A stretch of DNA of 34,050 bases from Desulfomonile tiedjei (GTDB lineage Bacteria; Desulfobacterota; Desulfomonilia; Desulfomonilales; Desulfomonilaceae): positions 1 to 34,050 of the forward strand of contig DYLG01000011.1 of the NCBI GenBank assembly GCA_020722215.1. The letters are read 5' to 3'. Positions 3,868 to 9,078 of the stretch are shown here, one piece after another; position 1 is the first letter of the stretch, and each line of letters starts with the position of its first letter. The translations under genes and the position numbers were made by a program. Under the pieces are notes generated by a model. That model saw only the letters and a list, made by a program, of their open reading frames with translations. It was not told where the DNA came from and searched no databases.

Positions 3868-4338
3868 CTCCGTTCTTTCCGAAGCCGCTTGTCATCGAGC
3901 TTGCGGGAGCACAGTCACTGGTCTGAACCACGGTGAATCGCGGATGCCCTCTTATGCCGACAAGTGGCGGCAGTCTAACTCCGCATGCTGATTGTCACGA
4001 CGCGAGATGATATACGGGCAGGACTGCTGCGGTCAACGCCAAACGCCTGTTGGCGCCAAAGCTCCGCTCACAGAGATACTTACCTCGAACGGATCGGCCG
4101 GCCTGATTCAATAGCCTCAAGTGTGCTTGTCCCGCCCGGCCTCCATTTTGTATACTTGGTCCGGATTTCCGACCGGGACTGCGAATCGGTAAAGCCGTGC
4201 AGGCGCCAATTAGCTTACCATTCGAGTCCCCGGGAGTCGCTCGACCCTTTGGGCTTGAGCGCCGGCCTACTACGGTCGCCCCGGAGGAATAAGGACCTCA
4301 AGAATGCTCTGGAATGCGAGTAATCACAGGAGATCGAG
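3868..4338. other. Divergent intergenic region between the MFS gene and the three-gene operon
   Basis: About 470 bases with no convincing gene. It holds a 10-bp palindrome TTGGCGCCAA (4050-4059) and a sigma70-like promoter candidate for the downstream operon. An open frame at 3985-4323 has no recognisable composition or ribosome site. Confidence 0.5.
4127..4156 (+). promoter_or_regulatory. Candidate sigma70-type promoter of the three-gene operon
   Basis: TTGTCC (4127-4132), an 18-base spacer and TATACT (4151-4156). It lies about 180 bases before the first gene at 4339 and points towards it. Assigned by consensus only. Confidence 0.4.
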
Positions 4339-4986
4339 ATGTTTTCGGAAGAAAAGATCATAGCCTCTCTGGCGTCACTGAAGGCCAAACGAAAATACCC
4401 CGCGTACCCGGGTGAGATTCTCACGGCTCTCAGACGTCCAAAGAACGTGTTGGAAAAACTGAAACGAGTTCTCAGGTCAATGGGACAGAACGGGACGCTG
4501 ATCCCGTCCCGACGAGGGAAGTTTCGTGCGTATATGCTGGCGGGGGAAGACGTGAGGTACTCGCGAAATCCTGATGAAAAGCTCAAGTTTGAACTCCTGG
4601 CGGAAATCGAGATCCTCAAAGCTCAGCTCTTGCAGGTGGCCGCTGAAGCCAAGGAAAGTTCCGAGGTGGTGCGGGCGGTCGCCGCAGAGGCCGCAGGTGC
4701 ATCAGGGGAAGACCTTGAGAGTCTCGACAGGCGGGTTTTCGAGACTATCCGGAGAATTGCACGGCATAGGACTAGCCGGTGCGTGCATATCCGGGAGATC
4801 AGGGAGGTCTTGTCCGACATACCGGGAAGCGAACTCGACCAATCGCTGGAGCGGCTGGGCACGTCTTGGAAGCTCGAACTGCAACCTGTTCAAGATGCTA
4901 CCAAGCTCACGGAAAAGCAACGGAAAACTGCTCTGAGAGTATCCGACGGCACAATGGTCTGCACTGTGGCCGCACCTGCCGATTGA
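4339..4986 (+). CDS. Small two-domain winged-helix/coiled-coil protein, first gene of the nuclease-motor operon
   Basis: A 215-aa protein whose family I do not recognise. Residues 1-70 look like a winged-helix domain: helices rich in Lys/Leu, then a basic wing-like hairpin (LIPSRRGKFRAYML). Residues 80-125 are a long Glu/Lys/Ala-rich helix, probably a coiled coil. Residues 128-205 look like a second helix-turn-helix module. Start: ATG with AGGAG six bases upstream (4328-4332). It precedes the AAA+ ATPase gene by ten bases, so the two are almost certainly co-transcribed. A DNA-binding adaptor or loader for the ATPase and nuclease-motor encoded downstream is the natural reading, but this is inference from shape and position. 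Confidence 0.75.
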   Translation: MFSEEKIIASLASLKAKRKYPAYPGEILTALRRPKNVLEKLKRVLRSMGQNGTLIPSRRGKFRAYMLAGEDVRYSRNPDEKLKFELLAEIEILKAQLLQVAAEAKESSEVVRAVAAEAAGASGEDLESLDRRVFETIRRIARHRTSRCVHIREIREVLSDIPGSELDQSLERLGTSWKLELQPVQDATKLTEKQRKTALRVSDGTMVCTVAAPAD

Positions 4987-4996
4987 GGGGTAAACA

Positions 4997-7168
4997 ATGT
5001 CCGCCGAACGGGTCCGGGCCGATTTCGCTGAACTGGCCAACATCATCAGGAACGCTGACAATCCTTTCGATGTGGACAAGGTGGAGAAAGCTCGCGATAA
5101 CGTTGTGGATGTCCCCACCATTCACGAAAAGGCCTTCCGCAGCATAGTCGCTGAACTCGAGAGAGTCCGGTCTAGCCGGAAAAGCAGAGGGGTGCTGCTG
5201 ACCGGAGTCGCGGGCAGCGGCAAATCGCACCTTATCTCGAGGCTGTTTTGTCACCGGCCCGAGAACGTCCTTTTTTTCCAAGTCCAGGCTCTGCCGGGAG
5301 GAACCGCTTGGTTCAGACATATCCTCCAGTGCATTGTAAGCGACCTTGAGCAGCCTATGAGCCATGAGGATGACACTCCCCAACTAATATGGTTGATCAG
5401 GCATTTCATTGACGGCGTTCGAGAGAAGATCGGCGCCGAAAGCCGAGGCGACTACGGTATCCGGATTCCGGACAGGGCTCTCAGGGCAAGGCTGGAAGAG
5501 ATCCACACTTCAATCCCCCACCCCGCGGCTGTCGATGTGGTCAAGGTGCTGGTTAATCTGTGGAAATGGGAAGCTCCGTTCAGGAAGAGAAAGGACAGAG
5601 GTGAAGGCATCAAGAAAAAGGGACTTGCAATTCAATGGCTCAAAGGGACCATGATCGAAGACGAAGAACTTGCGGTCATCGGAGCTAAATCAAACTTGGA
5701 AGAGACTGATCAAGACGGCCTCGTGTGCTATCTGGCCGCGCTGCGCGTATTCGGGCTGCTCACGGTGGGGCAGGCGCCGATTGTCCTGGTCTTTGACCAA
5801 CTCGATACAATGGAGCCTCACACCGTCAACAGTCTTGGCAACCAACTGCTTCAGCTCATCGGAAGCGAATCCGCAGCTCCCAACTATCTCCTTGTGACCG
5901 CAGGGGTGGGCGAACAGGTGGACGGTTTCATCGAGAACCGCATCATCCCGAAAGCCGTCGCGGATGTGGTTTTCAAGACCCGCCTGCAATTGCCTGCCCT
6001 TGACATGGATCAATCCCTCGACATGGTGGCCGCTCGACTGGCCCGATTGTTTGGGAACGAGCCGGTGCCGCCATTGCCTCATGGGGCTGACAGGTTGTTT
6101 CCCTTCACAGGGAGTTTTCTCCAAGAGCGGCTGAAAGGCCCCATAAAACCCGTGCCGCGAGATGTCCTGCAGAAATGCAGGACGCTGTACGACGAGATTG
6201 CCGAAGAGGTTGACACAGGATGGCTCGAGCGGTGGCCGGACAGCCTTGGGAAAATTATGCCGCCCACTACTCTGCCGACATGGGAGCACATCAGCTCGTT
6301 TCTCCAAAAAGAACTCGAGGCGTTCAGCGCAACCGTGGCTCTGCGGGTTTCTGTCGGTCCTGTTGACGGAGACTTGCTGGCCGATACGCTGCACAGGTTG
6401 CTGGAATGCGCGGTGGAAAACCGCCCTCTAGTGGCTGTCCCACCGCCTCCGGGGAAGTATCCGGCGCCTGCGGATTCTTTCTTCTGCGTCAAGACTAATT
6501 CGGACAAGTCCCCCTCCGTGGGGATCGTGTTCAATAACAAGGGCCATCATACGAGTGTTGGTGCTGTCTTGAAGAAGTGCCGGCAGTTCCTGGCCGCGTT
6601 CGGTTCTGATCAGCGAATGCTGTTTGGTCGCGATAACCAGGCCAAATCCATGGAAAAATGGAAAAGCTGCCAAGATCTGATAAGGGAATTGGAAGCGACC
6701 GGCAGATTCGAGCTTGTCCGGATGCATCAATCCGAGATTCGCCGGATTCAGGCCCTGGACAAACTCAGACGAGCCGTGCCCGATCTGGTTATGCCGGCTT
6801 CGAGACACCACGGGAGCCATAAGGTCACTGACGCCGATTTCACGAAGTTCCTTTGTGAACCCGGTGTCCTTGACGGTCTTCAGATCATGAAGGCAATTGA
6901 GAACCTTGTCGAAAAACAAATCGGCAGACCGGTCGTTGCGGAGCAGACGCCGGCCGGACCGGCCCTGTCGTTCGTACTGTCACGCATCACCGCCAGGAAG
7001 ATGTACGGCTTCGAGACTCTTGTATCAGAGTGGGCACGACTGCACAACCGGGCCAGACCGAATTCCGACGATCGGGCTGCCATCGAGATGGCAGTGGAAA
7101 CCCACGTCAAAGCGAGCAGGATGATGGTGATCGGCTCAGGCGAACACAAGATCGTCAAGAAGGCATGA
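4997..7168 (+). CDS. Large AAA+/STAND-like P-loop ATPase of the nuclease-motor operon
   Basis: A 723-aa ATPase. The Walker A is GVAGSGKS (residues 70-77) and the Walker B is PIVLVFDQLD (261-270, acidic residues D267 and D270), followed by a sensor-1-like strand (NYLLVTAGVGE, about 296-306). The unusually long distance between Walker A and B holds a helical insertion (about 115-240), as in ORC/STAND-type loaders and several phage-defence ATPases. Residues 310-430 look like a helical lid. Residues 450-600 form an alpha/beta domain I cannot assign, and 630-720 a helical tail. No membrane segment is present. GAGGGG lies six bases before the ATG, and the gene overlaps the next by four bases (ATGA). 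A role as regulator or loader of the downstream nuclease-motor is inferred. Confidence 0.85.
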   Translation: MSAERVRADFAELANIIRNADNPFDVDKVEKARDNVVDVPTIHEKAFRSIVAELERVRSSRKSRGVLLTGVAGSGKSHLISRLFCHRPENVLFFQVQALPGGTAWFRHILQCIVSDLEQPMSHEDDTPQLIWLIRHFIDGVREKIGAESRGDYGIRIPDRALRARLEEIHTSIPHPAAVDVVKVLVNLWKWEAPFRKRKDRGEGIKKKGLAIQWLKGTMIEDEELAVIGAKSNLEETDQDGLVCYLAALRVFGLLTVGQAPIVLVFDQLDTMEPHTVNSLGNQLLQLIGSESAAPNYLLVTAGVGEQVDGFIENRIIPKAVADVVFKTRLQLPALDMDQSLDMVAARLARLFGNEPVPPLPHGADRLFPFTGSFLQERLKGPIKPVPRDVLQKCRTLYDEIAEEVDTGWLERWPDSLGKIMPPTTLPTWEHISSFLQKELEAFSATVALRVSVGPVDGDLLADTLHRLLECAVENRPLVAVPPPPGKYPAPADSFFCVKTNSDKSPSVGIVFNNKGHHTSVGAVLKKCRQFLAAFGSDQRMLFGRDNQAKSMEKWKSCQDLIRELEATGRFELVRMHQSEIRRIQALDKLRRAVPDLVMPASRHHGSHKVTDADFTKFLCEPGVLDGLQIMKAIENLVEKQIGRPVVAEQTPAGPALSFVLSRITARKMYGFETLVSEWARLHNRARPNSDDRAAIEMAVETHVKASRMMVIGSGEHKIVKKA

Positions 7169-9078
7169 CTCCCATGGATGAGCCGCATGACAACAAGTTG
7201 ACCATTTCGGTTACGAAGATCACCGGGTACATACCGCCGGTCGAGGAGGGGCCTTTCAAGGCGTTCCCAGTGGCGCCCATCGGAAGCCTGTTTCACGACC
7301 TGTGCAGCGTCTTCCTGGCCGACTTGAACTCCAAGAGCGATTTTCAGGACACGGTAAAAAGGGCCGTTGCTGATGTCAAAGGGCCGAAGGATGCAGAGGG
7401 CCTGGAGGCCGCCGTGCAAGCCATGAAAGATTACGTCTTTGATGAACTCCTCAGAAAGGCGGCTTTTAGCAACTTCCATGACTTGGAAGCTCACGCCCAA
7501 ATGGAACTCTGGAGGGTGTTGGAATCGTTCTTGGAAGAATTAGGCTTGATACTCTTCGCCGCGAAAGAAAAGGGCGAAGGTCTTAGTTCGGTTCTTCTTG
7601 GAAGCGAGCAACCTCTTTACTGGCTCACAGAGATCAAAGGAAGACCGATTGTGGTATCGGGAAGATATGACCTCTTGCTCTACGATCACAGGTATGACAC
7701 TCCGCATTTGATTGATTTCAAACTCTGCGGAGTTAAGCGAGACCTGGCGAGTCTCATCCAAGTGATGCTCTATGCCCTGATGTTAAACAAGAACCACGGC
7801 ATCCGACCTGCCGCGACGGTACTCAACCTGTACCCCCAGCGCTCTCCAATTACCGTTGCATGGCCTCATATTATGGCTTTCGAGAAACCGCTGCTCACGT
7901 TCATAGAGTACGTGGCTGGCAAGGAATACCCGGGGAGTTTCAGTCCTGTTGAGATTCCGAATCCTACAGCGGAGCTTATCCCAGGTAATACGCCGTTCGA
8001 AACGCCTGAGTTACTGGTGGAGGCTCAAGATCTCCTAGCGAGGATCAAGGACAAACTATCGGAATTCAACTTGCCCGTTGAGCCGTACGAGGAACAAGGA
8101 GGCGCGGTCTTGATCGGTCCTACGTTCATAACGCTTAGAGTGACGCCGGGAAAAGGAGTGAAAGTCGCGTCGTTGACGAACCGGATCGCAGATCTTCAAA
8201 TAGCCTTGGCTACATCCAAGGCGCCTCGGGTGAAACACGGAGCGGGCTACGTGTGCATCGAGGTGCCCAGGCAAGAACGTTCCGTTATCAGCCTTTCGGA
8301 GATCCTTGAGCGCAACGTGAAACCGGGACCGCATGCCTTTGTCCTTGGGGTTGATGTTACCGGTACGGTACATTGGGGGGATTTCTCCAAACCGCCGACC
8401 TGCCACCTCCTTGTGGCAGGACAAACCGGCTCCGGCAAGAGCGAATTCGTTCGGCAATTGCTTTGCTCCTTGGCGTTCGGCAGCAGTCCGCATGGGCTGC
8501 AAATGGTTGTGGTTGATCCAAAAATCACCGGCTATCAAGATCTTAACGACAGTCCGTTTCTAAGATGTCACGTGATCGATCGAATGGACGAAGCTGTCGA
8601 GGTCTTAAAAAGTCTGGTTGAGGAGATGGAAAACCGCTACCTGAAATTTAGGGTACTCACGGCGAAGGATCTCGAATCGTACAATGCGCGATCCGGACTG
8701 GGAAAGATCCCTCGAATAGTCGTGGCGTTCGACGAGTTCGCAGACGCGATGGCCGACAAGGAATTGAAAAAGCAGTTGGAAAGCTCGGTGAAGCGCTTGG
8801 GGGCCAAGGCGAGGGCCGCCGGCATTCACCTCATCATTGCAACTCAGAGTCCGAGGAAAGAAGTCGTGACCGGCCTCATCAAGGCGAACCTGCCTTGCGT
8901 GACGGCGCTTGCCGTGGCAGGTACTACCGAAAGCCTTGTGGTTCTTGATCGAAAAGGAGCGGAGACTCTCTTGGGAAATGGTGATCTCCTGACGAAGGTG
9001 GGGGGCGAGGTCGAGCGCTTGCAGAGTCCTCTTGCCGATGCCCAAACTGTTCGAAGAATCATGTTCCCTGGAGTGTGA
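7165..9078 (+). CDS. RecB-type PD-(D/E)XK nuclease fused to an FtsK/SpoIIIE DNA translocase motor
   Basis: A 637-aa protein starting in an ATGA overlap with the ATPase gene; the ATG at 7174 is an alternative with better ribosome-site spacing. Residues 145-210 carry a complete RecB-family nuclease signature: GRYDLLL (D169), IDFK (D184, K186) and the downstream QVMLY helix (Q199, Y203). Residues 285-385 match the FtsK beta domain (GP-x-xT, VKVASL, GYVCIEVP). The motor follows: Walker A GQTGSGKS (419-426), Walker B VVAFDEFAD (519-527), AAGIHLIIATQSP (551-563) and the GAETLLGNGDLL segment (598-609). The N-terminal membrane domain and C-terminal gamma domain of cellular FtsK are both missing, so this is a soluble motor carrying a nuclease. 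It should translocate on and cut DNA; target and trigger are unknown. Confidence 0.88.
   Translation: MTPMDEPHDNKLTISVTKITGYIPPVEEGPFKAFPVAPIGSLFHDLCSVFLADLNSKSDFQDTVKRAVADVKGPKDAEGLEAAVQAMKDYVFDELLRKAAFSNFHDLEAHAQMELWRVLESFLEELGLILFAAKEKGEGLSSVLLGSEQPLYWLTEIKGRPIVVSGRYDLLLYDHRYDTPHLIDFKLCGVKRDLASLIQVMLYALMLNKNHGIRPAATVLNLYPQRSPITVAWPHIMAFEKPLLTFIEYVAGKEYPGSFSPVEIPNPTAELIPGNTPFETPELLVEAQDLLARIKDKLSEFNLPVEPYEEQGGAVLIGPTFITLRVTPGKGVKVASLTNRIADLQIALATSKAPRVKHGAGYVCIEVPRQERSVISLSEILERNVKPGPHAFVLGVDVTGTVHWGDFSKPPTCHLLVAGQTGSGKSEFVRQLLCSLAFGSSPHGLQMVVVDPKITGYQDLNDSPFLRCHVIDRMDEAVEVLKSLVEEMENRYLKFRVLTAKDLESYNARSGLGKIPRIVVAFDEFADAMADKELKKQLESSVKRLGAKARAAGIHLIIATQSPRKEVVTGLIKANLPCVTALAVAGTTESLVVLDRKGAETLLGNGDLLTKVGGEVERLQSPLADAQTVRRIMFPGV

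Follow-up and report, generated by a model that had tools for sequence, protein, structure and literature searches.

The stretch of Desulfomonile tiedjei DNA analysed here (34,050 nucleotides of contig DYLG01000011.1, hereafter the window) belongs to a metagenome-assembled genome (MAG) of 3.74 Mb that is 82% complete. Three intact, co-directional open reading frames on its forward strand encode proteins of 215 (P0001), 723 (P0002) and 637 (P0003) amino acids (Table 1). The first two genes are separated by 10 bases, and the second and third share a 4-base ATGA overlap, in which the ATG is the start codon of gene 3. The ORF coordinates bear out the tight packing described in the initial annotation. 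The promoter candidate that had been assigned to the module did not hold up: a scan for sigma-70-like sites gave four matches compared with 2.0 ± 1.4 in shuffled sequences, and the only forward-strand match upstream of the module (4127-4156) scored 9/12. As the number of matches was within chance expectation, the promoter candidate was rejected. The GC content of the module (0.54-0.56) is close to that of the window (0.557) and is thus uninformative as a sign of recent transfer.

Table 1 Genes and predicted domains of the three-gene module (coordinates refer to the window)
Feature	Residues	Coordinates	Strand	Basis or diagnostic residues
Gene 1 (S, P0001), small winged-helix/coiled-coil protein	215 aa	4339..4986	+	C-terminal motif and AlphaFold2 model
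P0001, long coiled-coil-like helix	78-118	4570..4692	+	AlphaFold2 model
P0001, C-terminal winged helix, conserved part of the family	124-215	4708..4983	+	pLDDT about 95 and alignment
Gene 2 (A, P0002), Orc/Cdc6-like AAA+ ATPase with inserted, predicted inactive REase-like domain and C-terminal wHTH	723 aa	4997..7168	+	
P0002, AAA+ core and lid	44-406	5126..6214	+	Walker A G70-K76-S77, Walker B D267, R347, R388
P0002, REase-like fold (alpha-beta-beta-beta-alpha-beta), without E-x-K	429-642	6281..6922	+	AlphaFold2 secondary structure and alignment
P0002, C-terminal winged helix	655-722	6959..7162	+	AlphaFold2 model
Gene 3 (T, P0003), RecB/Cas4-type nuclease fused to FtsK alpha domain and FtsK motor	637 aa	7165..9078	+	
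P0003, PDDEXK_1 nuclease	38-212	7276..7800	+	G40..FH44, D169, D184-x-K186, Q199-x3-Y203
P0003, FtsK alpha domain (PF17854)	286-368	8020..8268	+	
P0003, FtsK-type motor, without gamma domain	387-637	8323..9075	+	Walker A G419-S426, D523-E524, Q561

A search of domain families gave no significant match for P0001. Its AlphaFold2 model has a helical N-terminal third of low confidence, followed by the long helix and a single confident winged helix, in agreement with the winged-helix/coiled-coil protein of the initial annotation. The C-terminal motif (R155, L173, ..LTE.E..) is common to 37 homologues in the alignment, and the best Foldseek matches of the model were winged-helix proteins, none of them at E ≤ 0.001. 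Judging from the model, the long helix may replace the second winged helix found in many homologues.

P0002 matches AAA_16 (E = 8e-10), as expected from its earlier description as an AAA+ ATPase, and structural comparison refined this to an Orc/Cdc6-like ATPase. The AlphaFold2 model (mean pLDDT 85) shows the AAA+ core and lid, an alpha-beta-beta-beta-alpha-beta domain and a winged helix, in that order. The top Foldseek match in the PDB was ORC with Cdc6 (E = 7.5e-5), with many AAA+ proteins at similar E-values. BrxC and RdrA, which are ATPases of other defence systems, were also matched. The P0002 profile also weakly matches ORC1/ORC4 chains. The middle domain was assigned to the restriction endonuclease (REase) fold from the order of secondary-structure elements in the predicted model and, because an E-x-K motif occurs in none of the 42 homologues aligned, it is best read as an inactive REase. 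Towards the end of the AAA+ core, P0002 has a valine (V324; window 5966-5968) where 38 of 42 homologues have an arginine, and the ATPase might be altered by this replacement. Together with the coiled-coil of P0001, the missing arginine could mark a differently regulated variant.

For P0003, matches to PDDEXK_1 (E = 5e-6) and FtsK_SpoIIIE (PF01580, E = 2e-36) corroborate the fusion of a RecB nuclease to an FtsK motor that had been read from its translation, and the search added an FtsK alpha domain (PF17854, E = 3e-6). The nuclease active-site residues predicted from the sequence (G-x2-FH, D, D-x-K and QxxxY) are intact. The RecB-type motifs and the Walker residues are conserved, as identical or equivalent residues, in 21-22 of the 22 homologues, with truncated or broken copies as the exceptions. 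P0003 has the alpha domain and the RecA-like motor in common with cellular FtsK, but it lacks the 4TM and gamma parts and carries a nuclease at its N-terminus. The same genome encodes its housekeeping FtsK elsewhere, and that protein has the 4TM, alpha, motor and gamma parts; P0003 was therefore rejected as the housekeeping FtsK. In the third gene of four related loci (L019, L023, L059 and L115), the nuclease domain is followed by a Cas4-like cysteine cluster (Fe-S type), which is absent from P0003 and most other homologues.

The initial annotation had raised the question of whether the three genes co-occur in distant genomes, and this turned out to be the case. When neighbouring genes were read with profiles of all three genes, the S-A-T order came up again at about 25 loci. 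These belong to Desulfobacterota, Planctomycetota, Acidobacteriota, an Arcobacter MAG and Tectomicrobia, and the identity is about 20-30%. The gene 2 profile matched at least 62 loci among named genomes (Cyanobacteria, Planctomycetota, Acidobacteriota, Desulfobacterota, Actinomycetota, Myxococcota and others) and 16 of the 395 genomes of the phylum. Over 16 complete loci, the pairwise protein distances were strongly correlated (A-T, r = 0.94; S-A, 0.91; S-T, 0.87; Mantel p = 2e-4). Such co-divergence supports an interaction of the three proteins but falls short of proof, as shared host phylogeny contributes to it.

Within the family to which the window belongs, the ATPase was found in 4 of 18 genomes and the module was absent from the other 14, while the MFS gene upstream of the module had matches, mostly close ones, in all 18. 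In one of the carriers (G421), about 123 kb separate the module from the best MFS homologue. Judged by this patchy distribution and separation, the module therefore behaves as an accessory unit that has been exchanged repeatedly. Searches of phage and viral records gave no matches to the module and a plasmid search gave one weak partial match in a cyanobacterium and none at full length, on which grounds a phage-borne or plasmid-borne origin was rejected.

The composition of the module had been taken to be unprecedented. However, the same component list was published in 2024, when Rakesh, Aravind and Krishnan predicted a 'HerA/FtsK capture' defence class from genome comparison (NAR 2024; PMC10853773, section 22). 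The neighbourhoods described there comprise an Orc/CDC6 ATPase with an inactive REase before its C-terminal wHTH, an active REase, HerA/FtsK and a wHTH. The class has two REase families, one HerA/FtsK set carries the FtsK alpha domain, captured from cellular FtsK, and a subset of the neighbourhoods has a protein with 2-4 wHTH domains (PMC10853773). The module studied here likewise has an Orc/CDC6-type AAA+ ATPase, a degenerate REase between the ATPase and the C-terminal wHTH, and a separate wHTH protein, P0001. P0003 supplies a REase that is of the active type by its sequence and an FtsK motor with an alpha domain, as in the above subset of the class. P0001 combines a coiled-coil-like helix with one well-modelled winged helix, in contrast to the two to four of the paper. 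Beyond this difference, the comparison brought up no feature that contradicts the class. Every core component of the Orc/CDC6-iREase 'HerA/FtsK capture' class is present in the module by this comparison of component lists, and the module adds to an already predicted class rather than presenting a new composition.

Comparison with PADLOC, another check named in the initial annotation, gave a full-length model for none of P0001, P0002 and P0003, and a known PADLOC system was rejected for this reason. With BREX, the module has an Orc/Cdc6-type ATPase scaffold in common (BrxC is among the structural matches of P0002), and BREX-Related Capture (BRC) systems add a HerA/FtsK motor (PMC12839542). However, the module is without PglZ, methyltransferase, GNAT and TGT, and its FtsK is fused to a RecB-type nuclease.

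The motor of P0003 also matches the one at the C-terminus of SspH (E = 2e-63), and the motor of the L023 homologue matches that of DndH (E = 8e-23). The module might accordingly be read as a reduced DndFGH/SspFGH restriction module with phosphorothioate modification, in which genes 1, 2 and 3 correspond to G, F and H, and the three-part logic, in which a wHTH protein and an NTPase accompany a REase that has a HerA/FtsK motor at its C-terminus, would agree with this. The motor homology is real, but the match to SspH is limited to the motor end, and P0003 has 637 amino acids compared with about 1700 in DndH, in which the REase-HerA part is preceded by SF2-helicase-derived, TRD and inactive methyltransferase domains. 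P0001 is likewise short (215 amino acids, compared with 450-500 in the G protein), and P0002 is of the AAA+/Orc type, in contrast to the P-loop kinase domain of DndF (PMC10853773); P0002 and DndF/SspF gave only matches of P-loop length (E about 0.005). Linked Dnd modification genes are not obligatory for DndFGH/SspFGH (PMC10853773). DndC was not found in this genome (82% complete) and exceeded the cut-off in only 2 of the 24 carrier genomes that were searched; this low co-residence is consistent with a module that is independent of phosphorothioation genes. Given that tests of size, domains and gene content refute membership, we consider a reduced DndFGH/SspFGH module highly improbable.

Two further explanations have to be weighed. 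The initial annotation named a housekeeping role in DNA processing as the main alternative, and a constitutive or conditional machine for segregation, end resection or recombination could indeed be built from an FtsK-like pump and a RecB-type nuclease, similar to HerA-NurA. Consistent with such a role, the FtsK alpha domain and motor are derived from cellular FtsK, the nuclease is of the RecB/Cas4 type, ordinary chromosomal genes surround the module, and RuvB is among the motor swaps described below. HerA-NurA also is a DNA pump cooperating with a nuclease, but in the module pump and nuclease are fused and an Orc/Cdc6 ATPase and a wHTH protein are added; furthermore, NurA belongs to a different nuclease family. 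The absence of the module from 14 of the 18 family genomes and most of the phylum, in contrast to the flanking MFS gene, the separate FtsK with 4TM and gamma, and the very fast divergence of all components make a housekeeping role improbable. Alternatively, the three genes might handle DNA for a mobile element that has integrated into the chromosome, in its transfer, in the initiation of its replication or in competition between elements; the Orc/Cdc6 protein would then bind the origin of the element itself. Plasmids and conjugative elements also use Orc/Cdc6 ATPases and FtsK/HerA motors, Rakesh et al. (PMC10853773) term such neighbourhoods mobile, the module occupies different chromosomal places within the family, as in G421, and one of the family loci (L150) lies near a transposase-like ORF. 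However, the annotated ORFs of the window include no recognisable relaxase, integrase, recombinase or replication gene, phage, viral and full-length plasmid matches were lacking in the searches above, and the constant partner of the motor is a nuclease. We therefore regard a mobile-element module as rather unlikely.

Taken together, the module likely belongs, complete and apparently intact, to the predicted Orc/CDC6-iREase 'HerA/FtsK capture' counter-invader systems, and it is probably defensive. The neighbouring genes provide modest evidence for defence. A minority of 75 neighbour proteins of related loci match PADLOC families, among them AbiEi, AriA, PD-T4-4 and MADS, and the module is flanked in the window by metabolic genes (M99 peptidase, MFS, glycosyltransferase and CstA). 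The location in a defence island that the initial annotation had brought up is thus not evident in the window, and the signal among relatives is weak.

The best-supported model consists of recognition by P0001 and P0002, ATP-dependent assembly, FtsK pumping and RecB-type cutting, and it follows the published proposal that invading DNA is intercepted during segregation, transfer or packaging (PMC10853773). P0002, which carries a degenerate REase fold and a winged helix at its C-terminus, and P0001, which evolves fast, would bind particular sites or structures on the DNA of replicating, transferring or packaging invaders, and ATP binding would lead to a ring or filament of P0002/P0001 at the target DNA. 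These two proteins would recruit P0003, whose hexameric FtsK-type motor would pump the DNA. Being without a membrane anchor and the KOPS-reading gamma domain, P0003 would take direction and target from P0001/P0002. The RecB/Cas4-type PD-(D/E)XK domain on the same polypeptide would then cut or degrade the pumped DNA. We infer complex formation, target, cutting and protection, and with them an anti-phage function; K76 of P0002 and K186 and K425 of P0003 are clear catalytic residues to mutate. The open-access papers searched yielded no experimental work on this class of module. As a compact and intact set of three genes, the locus exemplifies a defence class that comparative genomics had predicted, and it opens the questions of whether a pump captured from the segregation machinery of the cell became an interceptor of invader DNA and whether the motor swaps among FtsK, HerA and RuvB.

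The carriers within the family differ in their motors, with FtsK in this genome, a nuclease-HerA-type motor in G421 (L150) and a nuclease-RuvB motor in G422 (L151); G426 (L149/L065) has S-A only. The G421 module (L150:6061-10913) has the same three-gene order with a HerA/TrwB-like motor, and the transposase-like ORF mentioned above lies at L150:3173-3634. In G422 (L151:4824-8837), the ATPase is followed by a 613-amino-acid RecB-type nuclease fused to RuvB_N/RuvB_C instead of FtsK/HerA. The active-site residues of this protein are intact, an S-type C-terminus is readable upstream, where the truncated contig ends, and the genome encodes an ordinary RuvB separately at another place. A single-sequence query, which may miss divergent copies, detected no further RecB-RuvB fusions in 395 genomes of the phylum or on plasmids, and this version of the module is a single case so far. 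Tentatively, the S-A pair may serve generally as a platform for targeting, with a nuclease-linked motor that can be swapped for types other than HerA/FtsK (FtsK here, DndH-type HerA in L150 and L023, RuvB in L151), a possibility to which we give less than even credence. If true, any DNA pump or branch-migration motor could be tethered to a nuclease of the RecB type, with an Orc/Cdc6-wHTH sensor to aim it, and the RuvB form would attack Holliday junctions or replication intermediates.

Other relatives vary in the ATPase itself, which is fused to a HerA domain in L024, L026, L084 and L117. In L061, L064, L073, L078 and other cyanobacterial loci, the ATPase has about 800 amino acids with an N-terminal extension of 150-190 amino acids, and no S gene was detected upstream. 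In L061, the sole cyanobacterial locus scanned, the extension corresponds to an RNase_T/DEDD exonuclease domain. An accompanying 3'->5' exonuclease and varied fusions have been reported for Orc/CDC6-HerA/FtsK systems (PMC10853773), and the RNase_T/DEDD and HerA fusions in relatives agree with this variety. S-A pairs without an adjoining nuclease-motor were found at L025, L029, L030, L032, L056, L058, L060, L065, L069, L079, L103 and L105, and they count against the three-part mechanism proposed above. The genes downstream of such pairs (caspase-like, histidine kinase, UvrB, ABC, MCP and HSP90) are unrelated to each other, and a common alternative effector was rejected for this lack of kinship. 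Finally, one locus (L059:2-9071) shows tandem modules: a complete S-A-T set is followed by an AAA_15/AbiEii-like ATPase, a 227-amino-acid protein and the start of a second S-A.
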